From: Armatimonadota bacterium
GTDB taxonomy: Bacteria; Armatimonadota; UBA5829; DSUL01
Direction: 5' to 3'
DNA: 64,000 nt
Assembly (NCBI GenBank): GCA_025998755.1
Contig: AP024674.1
Coordinates: 806,001-870,000 of the forward strand
Shown: piece after piece, positions 29,034-38,609 of the stretch
Layout: every line of letters begins with the position of its first letter
Position numbering within the stretch: position 1 is the first letter of the stretch
Program-made: the position numbers and the translations under genes
The notes under the pieces: model-generated
Seen by the model: the letters and a program-made list of their open reading frames with translations, nothing else
Database searches by the model: none
What the model was told of the DNA's origin: nothing

Positions 29034-29636
29034 GTGCAAGACGAGCCTGAAAAAAGGATCTGGAACCTGGTGAGCGGAGCCGCCGCCCGGGGAGATCTTG
29101 CGGCCGTCGCCGCGTGGACGTTTGAATCGCGCCAGGTAGCCAATCTGAAAGGGGACGGCGGGTGGACTCCTCTTCACGTGGCGGTCTCCAGGGACGAGCT
29201 TGCGGCGGCCCGGTTGCTGCTGGAGGTCGGAGCCGATCCGGACTGTCGCTCCGAACACGGGTGGACACCTCTTCACGTGTGCGCTGCTTCCGGAAAGGAT
29301 GACGGCGTGACATTGCTGCTCCAGTGGGGTGCCGCGGTAGATGCGAGGAACACCTCCAGCGCCACTCCTTTGCACCTTGCTGTTTCAAGCGATCACCGCA
29401 GCACTGTGGAACTCTTACTGGGGTGGGGAGCCGATCCAAACCTGCGGGACGGGCGCGGATGGAATGCGCTCCACCGCGCTGCGTATGCGCGGAATCCCGG
29501 GCTGGTGGAAGTGCTGCTGGCAAAAGGTGCCGACGCCCTGGCGCGAACCGCCGACGGGCTGACTCCGCGGGATATCGCCTTGCGGGTCCTCGCACCGGAG
29601 TTGGCGGAGCGGTTGCGCCGCGCTGCTGCACGCTGA
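29034..29636 (+). CDS. Ankyrin-repeat protein
   Basis: 200 residues made almost wholly of ankyrin repeats. Four full repeats (GWTPLHVAVSRDELAAARLL, GWTPLHVCAASGKDDGVTLL, SATPLHLAVSSDHRSTVELL, GWNALHRAAYARNPGLVEVL) are followed by a partial one. There is no signal peptide, so it is probably cytosolic; such repeats bind other proteins. The GTG at 29034 follows AAGGAGAG. It lies 54 bases after the OB-like gene, with no obvious partner. Confidence 0.88.
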   Translation: MQDEPEKRIWNLVSGAAARGDLAAVAAWTFESRQVANLKGDGGWTPLHVAVSRDELAAARLLLEVGADPDCRSEHGWTPLHVCAASGKDDGVTLLLQWGAAVDARNTSSATPLHLAVSSDHRSTVELLLGWGADPNLRDGRGWNALHRAAYARNPGLVEVLLAKGADALARTADGLTPRDIALRVLAPELAERLRRAAAR

Positions 29637-31322: not shown

Positions 31323-32717
31323 TCACGGCCAGGAGCCTTCGCGGATGGCAAGCCCGTTGCCTGATCGGACGACAGTGGCTGTGCGCGAGCCAGCCGAGGA
31401 GCCATCGGCACGGATGAAAGCCGCTGTCAGCGCCTGACCCTCGTGTGCCCTGTCAAGTGCCAGACGGAACGGGCGCACATTGCTGATGGCCAGCGTGCGT
31501 CCCTCGCTTGAGAAAACGGCGTAGGCGGTTCCAGGCGGCAACGTTCCGCGGAGCTCCCAGACCACTGCCCCGTGTTTGCCGCCGCTCGCTTCAAATGTGC
31601 GCTCCGCCCTCCGGATAGCATGCGCGATGACATTCTTGTCTCTGACCGGCAGGCGGATCCGGAAAGCTTCCACATCGCCCTGGACGGTAAGGCCGACGCG
31701 AGCAAGCCCATCCTTTGTGAATGCATCGTCCTGCTTGCCGACGATGGCAGGCAAGGAGATCCAGCCTCTGCCCGGAACCAGCATCTCCACCACAGGGGAG
31801 CCATCGCCCAGGGTCAGTGCTCCTCCAAAAAGCGGCGGTCGCCCTTCAAGCAGCGAGTCCCCGTCGAGAGGCGCCACAACCATGCTCTGGGGCATCACAG
31901 GCTGTGTCCGGGCGTGCGCGGCCGGAACGATCTGAAACCCTCCCCGGCACTCCGGAGGTTGTCCTTCGTCCTCAGGACGAAGGGCCGGCGCCGTGGAGAT
32001 GGTAACAACTCCTCCGTGATTCGTGTTCAAAGCTCCCACACCGGTGTATGCCGTTCCGTCGAACCTGCCGGTACCGCGAACCGGACGCAGCACCGTCGCG
32101 ATGCGCTTGCGGGACCCATCCCTGAGGAGCGCCTCCACGCTTCCCCCGGCCTTGTTCCAGAGGACAATCTCCACGGGCCGATCCGGCAGTTCGCGGCTAT
32201 CTATACGCAGAATGTCGCCGGGCGTTGGCCGCCAGTCCGGGGGAATCTCGCGAACGCTTCCGGACTGCTCCAGCCGCACGGGATCCCCGGCAAGCGGGGC
32301 CAGATCACGGAAGATGGCAGTGCCCGCAGGAATATCGGTGAGGATGGCGGACGGCCCTGGGACGTGTCCTCCGTAGCGACGCGGCATATGCCCGAACTCA
32401 CGCGGCTGAATACTGATTCCTTGCAGATTGCCGCCGGATGCCGGCAGGCGGATCCTTATTCCGTGGACAGCTGTGGCCGCGACACTTCCCGGCGGAGTGT
32501 ACCGGGCTGCCGGGAATGTCGTCACAGCCTGAGTGGCCGGTCTGATGACGCGGCCCACCGTCGCCCAGGCGCCTTCCGTCCCCGCGCGAGCCTGCACCCG
32601 TCCACCCGGCGAGTTCTCGATCCGCAGCTGAAGGATGGTTTCAGCCGGGAAGCAGATCCCGGCTGCGGCCAGGGTAAGAAGCGCGGTCAGCTCAATGCGA
32701 CCGCAAATACGCTTCAT
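31323..32717 (-). CDS. Exported protein of unknown function
   Basis: 464 residues, with a signal peptide (about 1-26, ending near CFPAE). The mature part is beta-rich and contains a paired theme: APLAGDPVRLEQ with IPPDWRPTPGDILRI and a later SSAGSRTATVVR end. No catalytic motif is recognisable. It overlaps the preceding gene by 26 bases and is third in an operon of exported proteins, suggesting a joint function. ATG at 32717 gives the signal peptide; a longer frame starting at 32774 does not. Confidence 0.55.
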   Translation of the reverse strand: MKRICGRIELTALLTLAAAGICFPAETILQLRIENSPGGRVQARAGTEGAWATVGRVIRPATQAVTTFPAARYTPPGSVAATAVHGIRIRLPASGGNLQGISIQPREFGHMPRRYGGHVPGPSAILTDIPAGTAIFRDLAPLAGDPVRLEQSGSVREIPPDWRPTPGDILRIDSRELPDRPVEIVLWNKAGGSVEALLRDGSRKRIATVLRPVRGTGRFDGTAYTGVGALNTNHGGVVTISTAPALRPEDEGQPPECRGGFQIVPAAHARTQPVMPQSMVVAPLDGDSLLEGRPPLFGGALTLGDGSPVVEMLVPGRGWISLPAIVGKQDDAFTKDGLARVGLTVQGDVEAFRIRLPVRDKNVIAHAIRRAERTFEASGGKHGAVVWELRGTLPPGTAYAVFSSEGRTLAISNVRPFRLALDRAHEGQALTAAFIRADGSSAGSRTATVVRSGNGLAIREGSWP

Positions 32718-34344
32718 GGAGCGCGGAGCGCAGTTCTGGCATCCTGTGGGGCAGGGTGGGGACCTCGCCTGCAAAGACCTGCTTCAAAAGGTCCCACCAG
32801 CCATACTGCTCGATATACACCAGATCGAAGAGCATCACCCCCTGCGACGCCTGGCGGCACATCTCGATCGCACGGATGAACTGCTCCGGATTGTTGCGGT
32901 AGTCCAGCAGATACAGACCGGCGTAAAAGAAACTGGCGTTCCCGATGACGTGGGCCGACCCTTCGGCAGCTGCCTGTACGGTGGCTGCCTGACTGGTCCC
33001 TTTTTCGGCGGCCTCCTCCCGGCTGACTGTAGGATAATAGCAGCCGGTGGTGATCCAGTCCATCAGCGGAGCGTATCCTGTCTGGTGATAGTCCGGGGTC
33101 GCCCACGCGGCGACCGGCCGGAAACGGTCCGAGGCCCAGTTGACTCCCAGCGGATAATAGCTCCAATACCAGGAGCCCACGTAAACCGCCATTTCGAGGT
33201 CTGGTCGAGCAGACTTGATTACGGCTCGCGCTTCTTGCGCGAAGGACTTGATGTTCAGTGCCCGCCAGTGCAGCCACTTCTGGAACAGCGGTCCCCAGAG
33301 CGGTTGCTGCGTGCCAAGCGCGGGAAGCAGCAGGACATCTTCCGGCCATCGCTCAACGGGTCTGCCCAGCCAGCATTCGAAACTGCGCCGGGACAGCTCG
33401 CTGAAGTCCGCGTTCAAACCGGAGTAGCGCATCCTGTCCAGCACGATGCCGTCTATATCGTAGTTGTCGACGATCTCGCGGATGATGGAGAGTTCGTAAT
33501 CGCGGACCTGACGGTTCGCCGGGTTGACGAAGATGGCATTGTGCATCTCCTGGGCGTGCCGCGAAGCGATGAAGCGAGGACGGGTTACCACTTCTGCCGC
33601 ATCGCCCGGCTTTAGGGACCGGAGCCATTCGCCGGCCGCTCCCGTTGCGGCGAGAAGCAGCGCGCCTGACGGTGATTTCTCTCCCGCCGGCAGCACGGTT
33701 CTTTTTGCCGGATCCAGCAGCACTCGGATCTCGCCCGCTCCGGGTTCGCCGGCCGCGTCCGGTTCTTCGAACAGAGCAAGGCGGCCTTCGGGGGCCTTGC
33801 GGTTGATCCGGGCGACGGGGTAGCCGGGTCCCTCTCCCGCGACGACCCACGCCTCCGGATCCTGCACCACCGCCTCCCACTCCGGGTGGTCGAACACCGG
33901 GCCCCCCTCGGCCTTGCGCCCCTCGGCGAATACATTGATGGCCGCATAGATCGCTATACCGTTAGCGCGGCACTCCTCCGATGCCGTGCGGAGCAGATCG
34001 AATCCCGGGGCATTGCGGGCGCCGGAGTATTCTTCCAGCCGCGGCGCAATGCGGCTGTCATAGAGAACCCGTCCTGTCAGATCCTTCACAACCACTACGA
34101 GGGCATTGATCCCAGCCTCTCGGCTTTTGCGGACAAGTTCCCTTACACCCTCGGGATGGCACAGTTGGGTGAAGTTCGCCGTTGCGTCCACCCACAGAAT
34201 GCGCGCTTCCGCCCCGGTCCGGTGTACCAGACGCGTTGCTTCAGTCTGCTTCACGGCGCAGCGTCCTTCCGAAATGAACAGAGCGCAGGCCGCGGCTGTC
34301 AGAAGTCCTGCGGTCTGCGCACGTATCAAGGCCGGCCGCGTCAC
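32692..34344 (-). CDS. Exported GHL10/DUF187-like glycosidase
   Basis: A 550-residue secreted protein. Its TIM-barrel-like sequence (ILWVDATANF, INALVVVVKDLTGRVLY, GIAIYAAINVFAEGR, then NYDIDGIVLDRMRYSG and DLEMAVYVGSWYW) is typical of the glycosyl-hydrolase-like GHL10 family, distantly related to alpha-amylase-type barrels. The Asp in GIVLDRMRY is a likely catalytic residue. It begins with GTG, overlapping the upstream stop as GTGA. Probably cuts an extracellular sugar polymer; the substrate is unknown. Confidence 0.72.
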   Translation of the reverse strand: MTRPALIRAQTAGLLTAAACALFISEGRCAVKQTEATRLVHRTGAEARILWVDATANFTQLCHPEGVRELVRKSREAGINALVVVVKDLTGRVLYDSRIAPRLEEYSGARNAPGFDLLRTASEECRANGIAIYAAINVFAEGRKAEGGPVFDHPEWEAVVQDPEAWVVAGEGPGYPVARINRKAPEGRLALFEEPDAAGEPGAGEIRVLLDPAKRTVLPAGEKSPSGALLLAATGAAGEWLRSLKPGDAAEVVTRPRFIASRHAQEMHNAIFVNPANRQVRDYELSIIREIVDNYDIDGIVLDRMRYSGLNADFSELSRRSFECWLGRPVERWPEDVLLLPALGTQQPLWGPLFQKWLHWRALNIKSFAQEARAVIKSARPDLEMAVYVGSWYWSYYPLGVNWASDRFRPVAAWATPDYHQTGYAPLMDWITTGCYYPTVSREEAAEKGTSQAATVQAAAEGSAHVIGNASFFYAGLYLLDYRNNPEQFIRAIEMCRQASQGVMLFDLVYIEQYGWWDLLKQVFAGEVPTLPHRMPELRSALHEAYLRSH

Positions 34345-36152
34345 GACCGGACCACTATCGTTGCAGGGTAGTTAGAACCTGCCAGCGGCACGGTGGTCAG
34401 GCGCACCTCTCTGCGTTCCCCGGGCGCCAGGGTATAACGCACGAGGGGGTGTTCCCGGCTGCCCACCACATGCGACTTGCCTACAAACTGACCGTCAATG
34501 ACGGAAGCGAAGCCCGCAATCCCGGCGGTCGGATCGAACAGGAGCTGAAAAACCTTCGATTCGCTGCTGGGGTTCTCCAGCGTCAACGCAATGTTGTAGG
34601 AAACGCCGTAGTTGCCGTACAGCACCTTCTCCTCCCCATCGTCCGGAATGGCGTGCTTGCCCACTCGGATGAACAGCCAGCGGTCTCCTGCGGCGTAGCG
34701 CTCGGAGATGGTGCGCACAGGGCTGGGATAACGGTGCCTGACCACGCGGGGCGGTGTATCTCCGTGCTCCAGCGCGGCGATGTCGAAGCTGGTCCGCCGG
34801 ACGGATGCGGGCTCGCTCACCACCCGTGTAACCACAGAGTCCGGTGCGCCCGTGATCTGCCGCATCTCTATAATGCCGCTCGCAGTCTCCATGCGCTTCA
34901 GTACCGCCGTCCAGAGCAGCATACGGCTGCGCGGTGGGATGGTCGCGATATATCCGGTTTCCGAGGCAAGATGCCGCAGGAAACGAGCCCCGGCCACGTA
35001 TCCCACCAACACCGTGTCGAGGATGGGACCGGCGTTGGCTGACAGCAGATGCACCTCCGCCGGCTGATCCGAAGTATTGGCCAGCACGATGCTAAGGCGC
35101 AGTTCGGATCGGGTGCCGTTCTGATGATGATAAAGCAGCCGGGCAGGCTTCCCCGGCTCCAGCAATGCCGCATACAGAGGCTGCGCAGTCTTCACCTGCT
35201 CCGGGAAGTTGCTATACAGCAACACCTCGGTGTCCCGTGCGGCAAGACTGGTGCGCTGGACCTCCACCGACGTTTGGATGCGCGCCGTCAGGAAACCTAC
35301 GCCATCCATCTTGATGTTCACTGGGACCCGCAGTGATGTCGCTCCCTGGGGCAAAGCCGGAGCCTTTCCGTCCACGGAAACCACGGCGAACGCTCCGGGC
35401 TGCAGTTGGCAGGCCACACGTGCTGCGCGAAGCACAGACTCTTCCACCACCTCCGCGGGAATTGCCGAACGGCCGGTCACGCGTGCCACAGGCACCGGCT
35501 GGCTGAGGGTTCCTGCATAGTGAGCCACGCGGACAGGGATGGAATCTGAGCCTTCGGGGCAGGTGATGGTCAATCGGGCATTCGCTGGATTCTTTCCCAA
35601 CACCGAGACCGTCCCGGAGCGCTCAATCCGGATTTCTGCCGCGTCCGGAGGGTCCAGCATAACCTGGAAGGGGCCGCGGGAACTGCCGGTTATCGTGGCC
35701 CGACGGGTCTCCCCGACGGGAATGGCGAGTTCGCGCTCCCGGAGTCTGACCGGCGGAAGGGTCAGCTGGCGTGTCAATTGCTGCGCCCACGTGCGGGCAA
35801 GGGCAAGAGTTGTGGTAGACTGAGCCGCCGCCTCTGCCGCGGTGGCATACGCCAGCACCTGGTGACCCCAGTACAGCTTCGCGGATCGTGCTGTGCCGGT
35901 TGCCCGGATCTTGGAAGGCGACTGACCCTGCGCTGCGAGTTGGGAGATCCTTCGTGCCACTAGGGCCGCCCGCTGTTGCGGGTCCAGCCCGGCATTGGAA
36001 GTCCGAACGGACAGGACCGGCCCGTTGTTAACATAGACGACAGCCGTTTTGCCCGAGACTCGGACATCAACTGTGACAACAGCTTCTCCCGGGCGCGCCG
36101 CCAGGGTTATCAGGATCAGGGGAATAACGGATAAGAGTCGGGATCGTCGCAT
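34341..36152 (-). CDS. Large exported beta-rich protein, unknown family
   Basis: 603 residues. The signal peptide covers about 1-24. The N-terminal region (about 25-130) contains many Ala and a VDVRVSGKTAVVYVNNGPVL stretch. The rest is a series of beta-sandwich-like segments (AIPVGETRRATITG, VPVNIKMDGVGFLTARI, YTLAPGERREVRLTTVPL), fitting surface or periplasmic structural domains. The ATG at 36152 is two bases after AAGGAGG, a very short spacing. First gene of the three-gene operon that runs to 31323. Confidence 0.6.
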   Translation of the reverse strand: MRRSRLLSVIPLILITLAARPGEAVVTVDVRVSGKTAVVYVNNGPVLSVRTSNAGLDPQQRAALVARRISQLAAQGQSPSKIRATGTARSAKLYWGHQVLAYATAAEAAAQSTTTLALARTWAQQLTRQLTLPPVRLRERELAIPVGETRRATITGSSRGPFQVMLDPPDAAEIRIERSGTVSVLGKNPANARLTITCPEGSDSIPVRVAHYAGTLSQPVPVARVTGRSAIPAEVVEESVLRAARVACQLQPGAFAVVSVDGKAPALPQGATSLRVPVNIKMDGVGFLTARIQTSVEVQRTSLAARDTEVLLYSNFPEQVKTAQPLYAALLEPGKPARLLYHHQNGTRSELRLSIVLANTSDQPAEVHLLSANAGPILDTVLVGYVAGARFLRHLASETGYIATIPPRSRMLLWTAVLKRMETASGIIEMRQITGAPDSVVTRVVSEPASVRRTSFDIAALEHGDTPPRVVRHRYPSPVRTISERYAAGDRWLFIRVGKHAIPDDGEEKVLYGNYGVSYNIALTLENPSSESKVFQLLFDPTAGIAGFASVIDGQFVGKSHVVGSREHPLVRYTLAPGERREVRLTTVPLAGSNYPATIVVRS

Positions 36153-36233
36153 GGCCTCCTTGCTCCCGGCTTCCTGATGTTCCGCAAGAGTGGTTGTGGG
36201 ATTGTACTCCCCCTGCACTCCGGTGTCAAACCA

Positions 36234-38609
36234 TCAGCCTTTTCCGCAGACTATTTGCTCCGTCCGGTCTATGTCCGAAGGTCGCCCCATGACAATCAGT
36301 TCATCACCCGGCTGGATGATGAAATCCGGGTCAGGGTTCGTGTGCACCTTCTCCCCGTTCCGTTTGATTGCCAGCACGGTTATGCCATATTCCTGGCGCA
36401 CCCGGGCCTCGCGGAGGCTCTTGCCGGAGAGGGGGCATCCCTCCGAGACCTGCAAGTCTCCCAGTTCCAGGTCCTCGCTCTCGTTGTGGACTACCAGGTC
36501 CAGGAAGTCCATGGTCCGGGGCTTGATTACGGCGGCGGCAATTCGCTTCCCGCCCAGAGTGTAGGGCGACATGACCCGGTCCGCACCGGCGCGCTTTAGC
36601 TTCTGTTCGTTCTCATCGCGGATGGACCGGGCCACAATATAAAGATTGGGATTCAATCCCCGCGCCGTCAGGACGATGAAGACGTTCTCTTCATCCGTCG
36701 CGGTGACGGCGATCAACCCTTTCGCCTTGCTGATGTTCGCCCGGTGGAGCACCTCGTCGTCAGTCGCTTTTCCTTCGATGTAGAGCGTGTCGTGCTCGAT
36801 GAGCGAAGGGATCTGCTCCGGGTTCCACTCTATGACGACGTAGGGGATGTTGTTCGCCCGCAGATCTTTGACGATCTGCTTCCCCATGCGGCCGTACCCG
36901 CAGACGATATAATGGTCCTTCAGTCTGGCGATTGCGTCGTCCATTCGTCTTCGCTTCTCCCTGGCTTCCGTTTCCTCCAGCAGGTCGGCCGCCTCTGCGG
37001 CCGCATCGGAAAAAGGCTCAAGCACCACGTGCGCGCCGGCTTTCAAAAGCTCCGGCGTGTCCTCGGGACGCTGGGCTGTCAGCGCAAGGTTTCCGTCATA
37101 GCCGTGCGCCTTCAGACTGTGCGCCAGCGTCAAGTTGACATCCCGTGAGGGGATAGCGCTCAACACCCAGCGCGCTGTTGAGAGCGGCAGCATGGCCGGA
37201 AACTCCGGGTCCTGCGCGTCACCGAACCAGGCCGCCCTACCCATTCTGTTCCATTCGCGGACGGTCTGGGGATCGAAATCTACTCCCAGCACCCGCCGCC
37301 CGCGCTGCTCCAGCTCCCGGACGATACCGCTGCCGTATCTCCCGCAGCCGAACAGAATGGTGTCCGCCGCTGCTCCCTCCCCGTGCTCGGTGTCCAGCTC
37401 CTGTTCACGGAATGCGTTTTTGCGCTCAAAAATGCGCAAGTACGGCGACAGAATTCCGTACAACTGCTGGGAATAAAGGATCAAATAAGTGGAAAGGCCG
37501 ATGGTCACCAGGCCCACCAGCGTGACCACGCCCACATCGCCCTCGTCAATATGCCCCAGGCTGAAACCAAGCGACGCCAGGATGAGCGAGAACTCGCTAA
37601 TCTGCGCAACGGTCAGACCGGCGAGGAAACTGGTGCGGCTGCGATAGCCCATCACCCCCATGATGATCATCACGATGATCGGGTTTCCGATGAGCACGAA
37701 AAGCGACAGCGGGACTGCCCTCCACACCTGGCTTCCCAGCAGGCCCAGATTCAGTCTGGCTCCCAGCTCGATGAAAAAGAACAGCAGCAGAAAGTCGCGC
37801 AGGCTGACAAGCCTGGCTCCGAGGATCTCCCGATAGCGTGTCGAGGCCAGGGAGATGCCGGCCAGAAACGCGCCCACCTCTTTGCTAAAGCCCAACCATT
37901 CGCACAGCCCGGCCAAAGCGACAGCCCAGGAGATTGCGCCCAGCACCAGCAGCTCCGATGATCGGGCGAAGAAGTCCACAACCCGAGGGATAGCGAAGGC
38001 CATGAGAAGGCCGAGACCAGCGATCAGTGCCGCTCCTTTGGCGACAATGACCACAATATGCGCCCATAGCGGTAGGTCGCTCTGGCCGCCGAAGGCCGAC
38101 AGAAAGATCATCGCCAGCACCACTACCACGTCCTGCACGATCAGAAAGCCAATGGCGATGCGTCCATGAAGCGAGTCGGTCTCCCGCTTGTCTGACAGCA
38201 GCTTGACGATGATAATGGTGCTGGAGAATGTCAGCGCGACAGCCACATAGAGCGCGCTGATCGGCCGGAGTCCCAGAGCGATGCAGATGATGTAGCCGCC
38301 GATCGTGGTAAACGCCACCTGCCCCAGACCTGTGGCCAGCGCGACGGGCCCCATCGTGCGGATAAGACCCACGTCCAGCTTGAGCCCCACCACGAACAGC
38401 AGCAGGGCCAATCCCAGTTCCGCCAGTAGATGGATCTGGTCGGACTTGTCTACCCAGCCCAGTCCGCTGGGGCCCACCAGGATCCCCACACCGATGAAAC
38501 CTACGAGCAGGGGCTGGCGGAGCCGAATGGCGACAGCGCCCACCGCTGCAGCTACAAGCAGCAGCAGCACAATCTGATCGAACAGGTTGCGGCTGATCTC
38601 AATGCCCAA
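36234..38609 (-). CDS. CPA2 cation/proton antiporter with two RCK-N domains
   Basis: A 791-residue membrane protein. Residues about 1-395 form the KefB/RosB-type exchanger (12 or so helices; TFSSTIIIVKLLSDK, FLIVQDVVVVLAM and KEVGAFLAG motifs). Then come two nucleotide-binding RCK-N domains: FGCGRYGSGIV near 418 and CGYGRMGKQIV near 566, each with an intact GxGxxG and a following acidic residue. One RCK-C domain (about 700-785) ends it. Family members exchange K+ or Na+ for H+ and are gated by nucleotides. Two tandem RCK-N domains in one chain are unusual. Confidence 0.88.
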   Translation of the reverse strand: MGIEISRNLFDQIVLLLLVAAAVGAVAIRLRQPLLVGFIGVGILVGPSGLGWVDKSDQIHLLAELGLALLLFVVGLKLDVGLIRTMGPVALATGLGQVAFTTIGGYIICIALGLRPISALYVAVALTFSSTIIIVKLLSDKRETDSLHGRIAIGFLIVQDVVVVLAMIFLSAFGGQSDLPLWAHIVVIVAKGAALIAGLGLLMAFAIPRVVDFFARSSELLVLGAISWAVALAGLCEWLGFSKEVGAFLAGISLASTRYREILGARLVSLRDFLLLFFFIELGARLNLGLLGSQVWRAVPLSLFVLIGNPIIVMIIMGVMGYRSRTSFLAGLTVAQISEFSLILASLGFSLGHIDEGDVGVVTLVGLVTIGLSTYLILYSQQLYGILSPYLRIFERKNAFREQELDTEHGEGAAADTILFGCGRYGSGIVRELEQRGRRVLGVDFDPQTVREWNRMGRAAWFGDAQDPEFPAMLPLSTARWVLSAIPSRDVNLTLAHSLKAHGYDGNLALTAQRPEDTPELLKAGAHVVLEPFSDAAAEAADLLEETEAREKRRRMDDAIARLKDHYIVCGYGRMGKQIVKDLRANNIPYVVIEWNPEQIPSLIEHDTLYIEGKATDDEVLHRANISKAKGLIAVTATDEENVFIVLTARGLNPNLYIVARSIRDENEQKLKRAGADRVMSPYTLGGKRIAAAVIKPRTMDFLDLVVHNESEDLELGDLQVSEGCPLSGKSLREARVRQEYGITVLAIKRNGEKVHTNPDPDFIIQPGDELIVMGRPSDIDRTEQIVCGKG

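Follow-up and report, generated by a model that had tools for sequence, protein, structure and literature searches.

Three overlapping genes, here called A, B and C, lie on the minus strand of a 64,000-nucleotide stretch of DNA (the window) from an Armatimonadota bacterium (assembly GCA_025998755.1, contig AP024674.1, positions 806,001 to 870,000 of the forward strand); the surrounding genome is a single contig of 3.29 Mb. The explanation tentatively favoured here, with somewhat less than even confidence, is that they constitute an old Armatimonadota operon through which the cell maintains or modifies the glycan of its own envelope or exopolysaccharide, and that their products do not form an obligate complex. 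This is favoured because the glycosidase-like protein B is near single copy and mostly vertically inherited, and because A contains an S-layer-type domain. Further support comes from gene order and strand, which are widely kept, and from the lack of a constant sugar-uptake neighbour; a role in polymer processing is also suggested by polymer-looking extras that recur at these loci (a membrane protein gene between A and B, a deacetylase gene after C). Such a grouping of genes around an enzyme type that is already known is unusual, and probably old.

34341..36152, minus strand: gene A (open reading frame 34341-36218, ATG at 36152), 603 amino acids, modular beta protein with a signal-like N-terminus
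32692..34344, minus strand: gene B (GTG start), 550 amino acids, GHL10 + DUF4985 glycosidase-like protein
31323..32717, minus strand: gene C (open reading frame 31323-32774, ATG at 32717), 464 amino acids, exported protein of no known family

These coordinates confirm the overlapping three-gene operon described in the initial annotation. The GTG start of B lies over the stop of A, giving an overlap of 4 bases (34341-34344), while B and C share 26 bases (32692-32717). The ATG of A is preceded by AAGGAGG, and that of C sits in front of a signal-like segment. Signal peptides had been claimed for all three products and, in the window, each N-terminus is indeed charged and then hydrophobic, as read by eye rather than by a predictor. 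Among relatives, a crude hydropathy test finds a hydrophobic stretch within the first 90 amino acids in 27/28 A, 22/24 B and 20/21 C rows, the B set including only one row from family f2 (see below). Relatives within the same family are 50-54% identical for A, B and C, and comparison of A with a same-genus relative (365 codons; A only at that distance) gives a non-synonymous divergence (dN) of 0.064 and a synonymous divergence (dS) of 0.42. The three are considered real genes because of this purifying selection on A and the same-family relatives of all three.

Conservation was assessed in 101 genomes, namely this one and 100 relatives up to the phylum Armatimonadota. Long matches to A are present in 75 (some cut at contig ends; any match, 82), a DUF4985-bearing B in 50 and C in 62. 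B was counted via DUF4985; a plain B search also picks up GHL10 paralogues (90/101 genomes). The count for C is taken from 65 matching genomes, of which G068, G086 and G092 were dropped as weak (19.5-25.2 bits); G095 (24.2 bits), the one of these four scored with a C profile, was retained, its open reading frame reaching 125 bits. Genes were called linked when match midpoints lay within 6 kb (A-B), 4 kb (B-C) or 8 kb (A-C). On this definition the whole trio is linked in 14 of the 30 genomes having all three, and in 11/25 when only the 80 genomes at least 90% complete are considered; pairwise, linkage is found for A-B in 25/38, for B-C in 19/34 and for A-C in 15/48 genomes with both. One unlinked A-B pair, in G002, is probably an assembly break, with both genes reaching contig edges. 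The order A>B>C on one strand holds in all 33 fetched loci with at least two of the genes, a set that includes several genomes fetched twice; order and strand at other loci were judged by eye, and at L071 and L079 one gene is hidden in the ORF caller by a longer opposite open reading frame. The initial annotation had proposed checking the trio in relatives, with flanking genes not kept beside the glycosidase as the outcome that would speak against it; this was looked at and did not occur.

A tree of 36 B proteins (short search, with only Shimodaira–Hasegawa-like approximate likelihood ratio test support, SH-aLRT) mostly tracks the genome families, and linked copies are found on both sides of its midpoint split (G084 versus the rest). 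Because of these two features, linkage of the trio is probably ancestral, with several separations later. DUF4985-bearing B is near single copy: 44 of the 50 genomes having it carry one. An origin of A, B or C in phages was also considered and set aside, no PHROG match being found at E 0.1. It is very unlikely that the genes are merely co-located, their coupling reflecting compact genomes and not a common function. Gene presence is statistically independent, as detailed below, and in family f2 A comes directly after mutL in 5/5 loci with no evident functional link, which would fit such a view; however, order and strand are the same in many families and on both sides of the B tree, where drift should have broken the linkage.

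The identification of the middle gene as GHL10-like stands. B passes the curated cut-off of PF02638 with 68.3 bits against 27.9, and has two further landmarks:

32779..33108, minus strand: DUF4985 domain, B residues 413-522 (PF16373, 118 bits against a cut-off of 39.3, E 3.7e-34)
33424..33438, minus strand: DRMRY motif, B residues 303-307, at the end of barrel strand 4

Within this motif D303, R304 and R306 are identical in 34/34 aligned relatives (DRxR). When a profile of 24 B relatives is compared with the PDB, the best match is Cwp19 of C. difficile (5oq2, E 1.3e-19), followed by the GH156 exosialidase EnvSia156 (6rzd, E 4e-4). The GHL10 domain of Cwp19 is homologous to B over three stretches, and both proteins are exported. 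Where B has Asp-Arg-Met, Cwp19 has D195-D196-Y197; the Arg and Met of B thus stand at D196 and Y197, which the Cwp19 authors count, along with W36, R132 and others, among the likely residues of the active site (PMC5765458). Cwp19 itself is a lytic transglycosylase (PMC6016235) with CWB2 cell-wall repeats, and no DUF4985 is reported for it. A second GHL10 protein, DigH/YddW of E. coli, has barrel segments homologous to B in three collinear stretches; it differs in having a DDYFY motif and in ending, at 439 amino acids, where the barrel ends, and its annotated neighbours are by name unlike A or C. DigH is active on denuded glycan.

Given these matches, B might be a septal or autolytic peptidoglycan glycosidase like DigH or Cwp19, with A and C aiding daughter-cell separation. 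This is unlikely: the Asp-Asp-Tyr motif of the peptidoglycan-cutting GHL10 proteins is absent from B, where the replacing Asp-Arg-Met has its arginine, R304, in 34/34 relatives; the Pfam scan gave no SPOR, LysM or SLH domain; and B is probably cytosolic in family f2. Nor is the family name a guide to function, since the GHL10 protein DogH of Deinococcus has reported starch activity (PMC9967864).

The match to EnvSia156 consists of 30 ungapped residues sharing D-x-M-R-Y/F (only 6rzd residues 174-203 are aligned), in which R202-F203 align with R306-Y307 of B. These two residues agree with the Arg202 and Phe203 described for GH156, where Arg202 coordinates the sialic-acid carboxylate (PMC6811678). 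Because R306 is the equivalent of this carboxylate-coordinating arginine, we infer by analogy that the substrate of B may be an acidic sugar; the sialic-acid specificity of GH156 is not implied, and the rest of the domain is unaligned. D53 of B lies near the first barrel strand, and the catalytic Asp14/His134 pair of GH156 falls outside the aligned 30 residues.

The initial annotation took both flanking proteins to be beta-rich members of no known family. AlphaFold models agree with the first part for both; the second holds for C but not quite for A, one domain of which recurs in Deinococcus proteins and has a weak resemblance to DUF3370. A is modelled as a chain of beta-rich domains (mean predicted local distance difference test score, pLDDT, 87.0), and three parts can be delineated:

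35763..36071, minus strand: mobile exported alpha/beta module, A residues 28-130, from N-terminal-only matches and architectures
35517..35759, minus strand: BIG2/S-layer-type immunoglobulin (Ig) domain, A residues 132-212, from VIA-align to SbsC 4uid_B
34344..35225, minus strand: beta-rich C-terminal part, A residues 310-603, with conserved YSNxPE, YHHQN and GNYGVxY motifs

Residues 132-212 superpose on the S-layer protein SbsC (4uid_B) with Z 12.4 and 2.0 A over 80 residues, and thus have a BIG2 fold; a Big_2 sequence match is found in 4/28 A relatives. The N-terminal module is covered by no Pfam model in scans of the relatives' architectures. Elsewhere it occurs as a free-standing exported protein, or fused to ankyrin repeats or to an M48 peptidase (L156-L161). 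The C-terminal part, about 290 residues, is shared with Deinococcus plasmid proteins (WP_249395387.1 and relatives; L116, L153, L155), which score 46.2, 43.5 and 38.0 bits, the best of 2000 shuffles of one protein reaching 4.3. These proteins have other front parts, with PKD, one of them with a weak copper-amine-oxidase-like match, and at 4/4 loci there is no B or C gene within about 6 kb either side.

The relation of A to DUF3370 (PF11850) is fainter. A scores 21 bits, below the curated cut-off of 25, with a weak match at residues 512-539. Of its relatives, 24/28 match at E <=0.5 (best 9.3e-6), only about 30 of 422 positions being aligned. Among 61 genomes searched, the match is A in 34 of the 35 having one, and the cut-off is exceeded in a single genome, by the A of G003 (25.2 bits); among 14 control genomes DUF3370 is found in Synechococcus only. 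DUF3370 was therefore not adopted as the identity of the C-terminal domain: it is unconfirmed, the Deinococcus relatives having no DUF3370 match even at E 10. A limited literature text search found no paper naming DUF3370, which is not to claim its absence from print. By sequence, the best PDB match of A has E 0.084. Foldseek matches of A (E 1e-8 to 1e-5) were not used, being mostly long multi-domain chains, many of them animal, with a query-length template modelling (TM) score below 0.2.

C is the operon's most novel component. The window protein matches no Pfam family, and its beta-rich AlphaFold model (mean pLDDT 92.2) has as a whole no Foldseek match at E <=0.001 in PDB or BFVD; residues 26-300 were not searched alone. 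Its two parts are as follows:

31818..32642, minus strand: conserved beta domain, C residues 26-300, with H85, R88, R218, D220, N231, H234, E256, R258 and H268
31356..31571, minus strand: Ig/fibronectin type III (FnIII)-like tail, C residues 383-454, from Big_7 in relatives and VIA-align to a CbhA module

Most conserved positions fall in residues 26-300: N35, N188, R218 and H234 are present in 35/35 sequences, and H85, D220, N231, E256, R258 and H268 in 32 or 33/35. This density of polar residues looks like a putative catalytic or metal site. The Ig-type Big_7, the one Pfam family matched by most C relatives, is found in 17/21 of them and not in the C of the window; its placement in the tail, the site of the fold match to FnIII-like modules, is our own assignment. 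The highest VIA-align score of C, Z 7.1, is to the FnIII-like module of CbhA, with rows confined to about residues 378-463, and sequence searches of the PDB give E <0.01 only for two FnIII-like modules, at the tail. Twin-arginine (Tat) export, which might have pointed to a cofactor in C, was discarded as evidence, RRxFL occurring in 3/35 relatives (L136, L139, L144) and a loose pattern in 6/35.

Among the contigs that carry a C relative, 36 have a name: 26 are labelled Armatimonadota, Armatimonadetes or Armatimonadaceae and 7 only 'bacterium', with one each from Capsulimonas, Abditibacteriota and UBP13. No tblastn match to C was found at E 0.1 in 72,556 plasmids. Two unclassified drafts (L148, L151) contain C relatives with 30-32% identity and have no A match.

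In the favoured explanation, A, B and C would be co-transcribed, and B would hydrolyse a glycosidic bond at an acidic sugar, the substrate being a self-made polymer or its fragments; R306 would hold the carboxylate, and D53, where the first barrel strand ends, would be a candidate base. A would act as scaffold or binding protein at the wall or surface. C would work on the same envelope layer as a separate exported factor, possibly an enzyme. The three would serve one process, each able to work alone. As to the setting, a two-membrane envelope has been inferred in one Armatimonadota genome paper (PMC4072686), and Armatimonadetes are listed as having SlpA/OmpM-like tethers (PMC9388160). A bolder version is conceivable though improbable. 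In it, C would represent a new exported enzyme family with an unseen fold and a polar, perhaps metal, site (H85/D220/N231/H234/E256/H268), sharing its envelope polymer with a GHL10/DUF4985 glycosidase specific for acidic sugars, and A a domain family common to diderm Armatimonadota, Deinococcota and Cyanobacteria, serving an undescribed envelope layer.

The joint extracellular complex for binding and cutting one polymer, which the initial annotation had deduced from the tight coupling, fares less well and is now held to be rather improbable. It draws on the 4- and 26-base overlaps and the linkage of the trio in 14/30 genomes, on the Ig-type modules in A and C, of a kind known from binding proteins, and on the Bacteroides surface glycan-binding proteins in the Foldseek list for A (query-length TM <=0.11). 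Against this, the genes co-occur no better than chance. In 37 genomes A is found but no DUF4985-type B, and in 14 C is found but no A, although drafts may miss genes; in 6/6 tested cases, the genome with C contains either the N-terminal module of A alone or no part of A at all. The role of C need not depend on A, because C is found in genomes without full A. The trio is also taken apart in different ways. C stands apart from a linked A-B pair in 8/8 family-f3 genomes with full B; B and C are together with A elsewhere in G017 (f4) and G018 (f5), whereas another f4 genome, G024, has all three together; and in G008 A and C are adjacent and no DUF4985-bearing B is present.

The compartment of B also differs in one family. 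In family f2 (G004, G006, G010, G012; 4/4 with B), in-frame stops lie upstream of a B start that falls at the catalytic domain or only a little ahead of it:

L072:6639-8120, family-f2 B without signal peptide
L073:8090-9583, family-f2 B without signal peptide
L074:7554-8798, family-f2 B without signal peptide
L075:7933-9150, family-f2 B without signal peptide

In G010 and G012, the block matching about residues 161-255 of B is absent as well, and A and C are still in the operon. At the G006 locus (L135), A and C retain signal segments. Since a signal peptide is lacking and in-frame stops precede the catalytic domain, B of this family is probably cytosolic, with A and C exported, to judge from the sequences.

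Several of these points weigh against an envelope operon too. Presence of the genes is uncorrelated in the 101 genomes (Fisher p 0.82 for A-B, 0.22 for B-C and 0.36 for A-C) and likewise in the 80 with completeness of at least 90% (1.0, 0.36 and 0.44). A cytosolic B in family f2 seems a misfit for an extracellular polymer, unless its substrate there consists of fragments or a precursor. The role of R306 is an analogy with a distant enzyme that matches B along 30 residues, and D53 is a candidate base by position. A limited literature text search found no paper naming DUF4985, from which absence from print is not claimed. As to neighbouring genes, five independent loci have a response-regulator gene no more than four genes away from C; GH2 genes lie near a B-less C at three loci (L110:4116-6083, L128:6690-8126, L129:12263-14650), and a GH130 gene lies ahead of B-C in G018 (L094).

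The GH2 and GH130 neighbours led us to lower our confidence in the envelope operon slightly, and to raise by a similarly small step that in a saccharolytic locus, in which B would break down a polysaccharide from outside the cell as food and A and C would have a binding role. This alternative remains unlikely. It would accord with the occurrence of DUF4985 in Bacteroides only, among the 14 control genomes, and with the abundance of GHL10 paralogues in the genomes searched. On the other hand, B is near single copy with largely vertical descent, and the recurrent neighbour clusters (only those with at least three independent members within four genes of A, B or C; representatives were scanned with Pfam) include neither a sugar-uptake system nor a second hydrolase at a constant place beside the linked trio.

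Recurrent neighbours do include a response regulator with an HD domain, MiaB, MutS and MutL types, ABC-transporter ATPases and Gfo/Idh/MocA oxidoreductases. Outside family f2, none has a constant place beside the trio except a polytopic membrane protein, encoded between A and B at four independent loci (G028, G084, G056 and Capsulimonas L141); the G084 copy, the only one scanned, has no Pfam match. In G055 the stretch between A and B is longer by 1.9 kb. A TPR + polysaccharide-deacetylase gene follows directly after C in two genomes of family f6 (L122, L124). This combination of a deacetylase with a GHL-type barrel recalls PgaB, which is part of a poly-N-acetylglucosamine deacetylase and is given as the closest structural match of Cwp19 (PMC5765458).

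Armatimonadota are little studied and the construction of their envelope is hardly known. A direct way in is offered by this operon, near single copy and probably old, which combines one recognisable enzyme type with two exported family-less proteins. DUF4985 proteins and the C family gain a conserved genomic context, and a domain common to Armatimonadota, Deinococcus and perhaps cyanobacterial DUF3370 proteins is suggested. More generally, genes can be tightly coupled in an operon without their products forming a complex: here the genes occur independently of one another, and B appears to switch compartment in one family.

Some features of the surroundings complete the picture. In family f2 (L072, L073, L074, L075, L084), A comes directly after a mutL-type gene in 5/5 loci, and mutS- and miaB-type genes lie ahead of A in 4/5; at L073, the MutS, MutL and MiaB domains were confirmed by Pfam scan. 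In the window, an antiporter gene of the Na+/H+-exchanger type (36234-38609) lies upstream on the same strand, separated from the ATG of A by a gap of 81 bases. A gene for an ankyrin-repeat protein of 200 amino acids is found at 29034-29636, on the strand opposite to the nearby operon.

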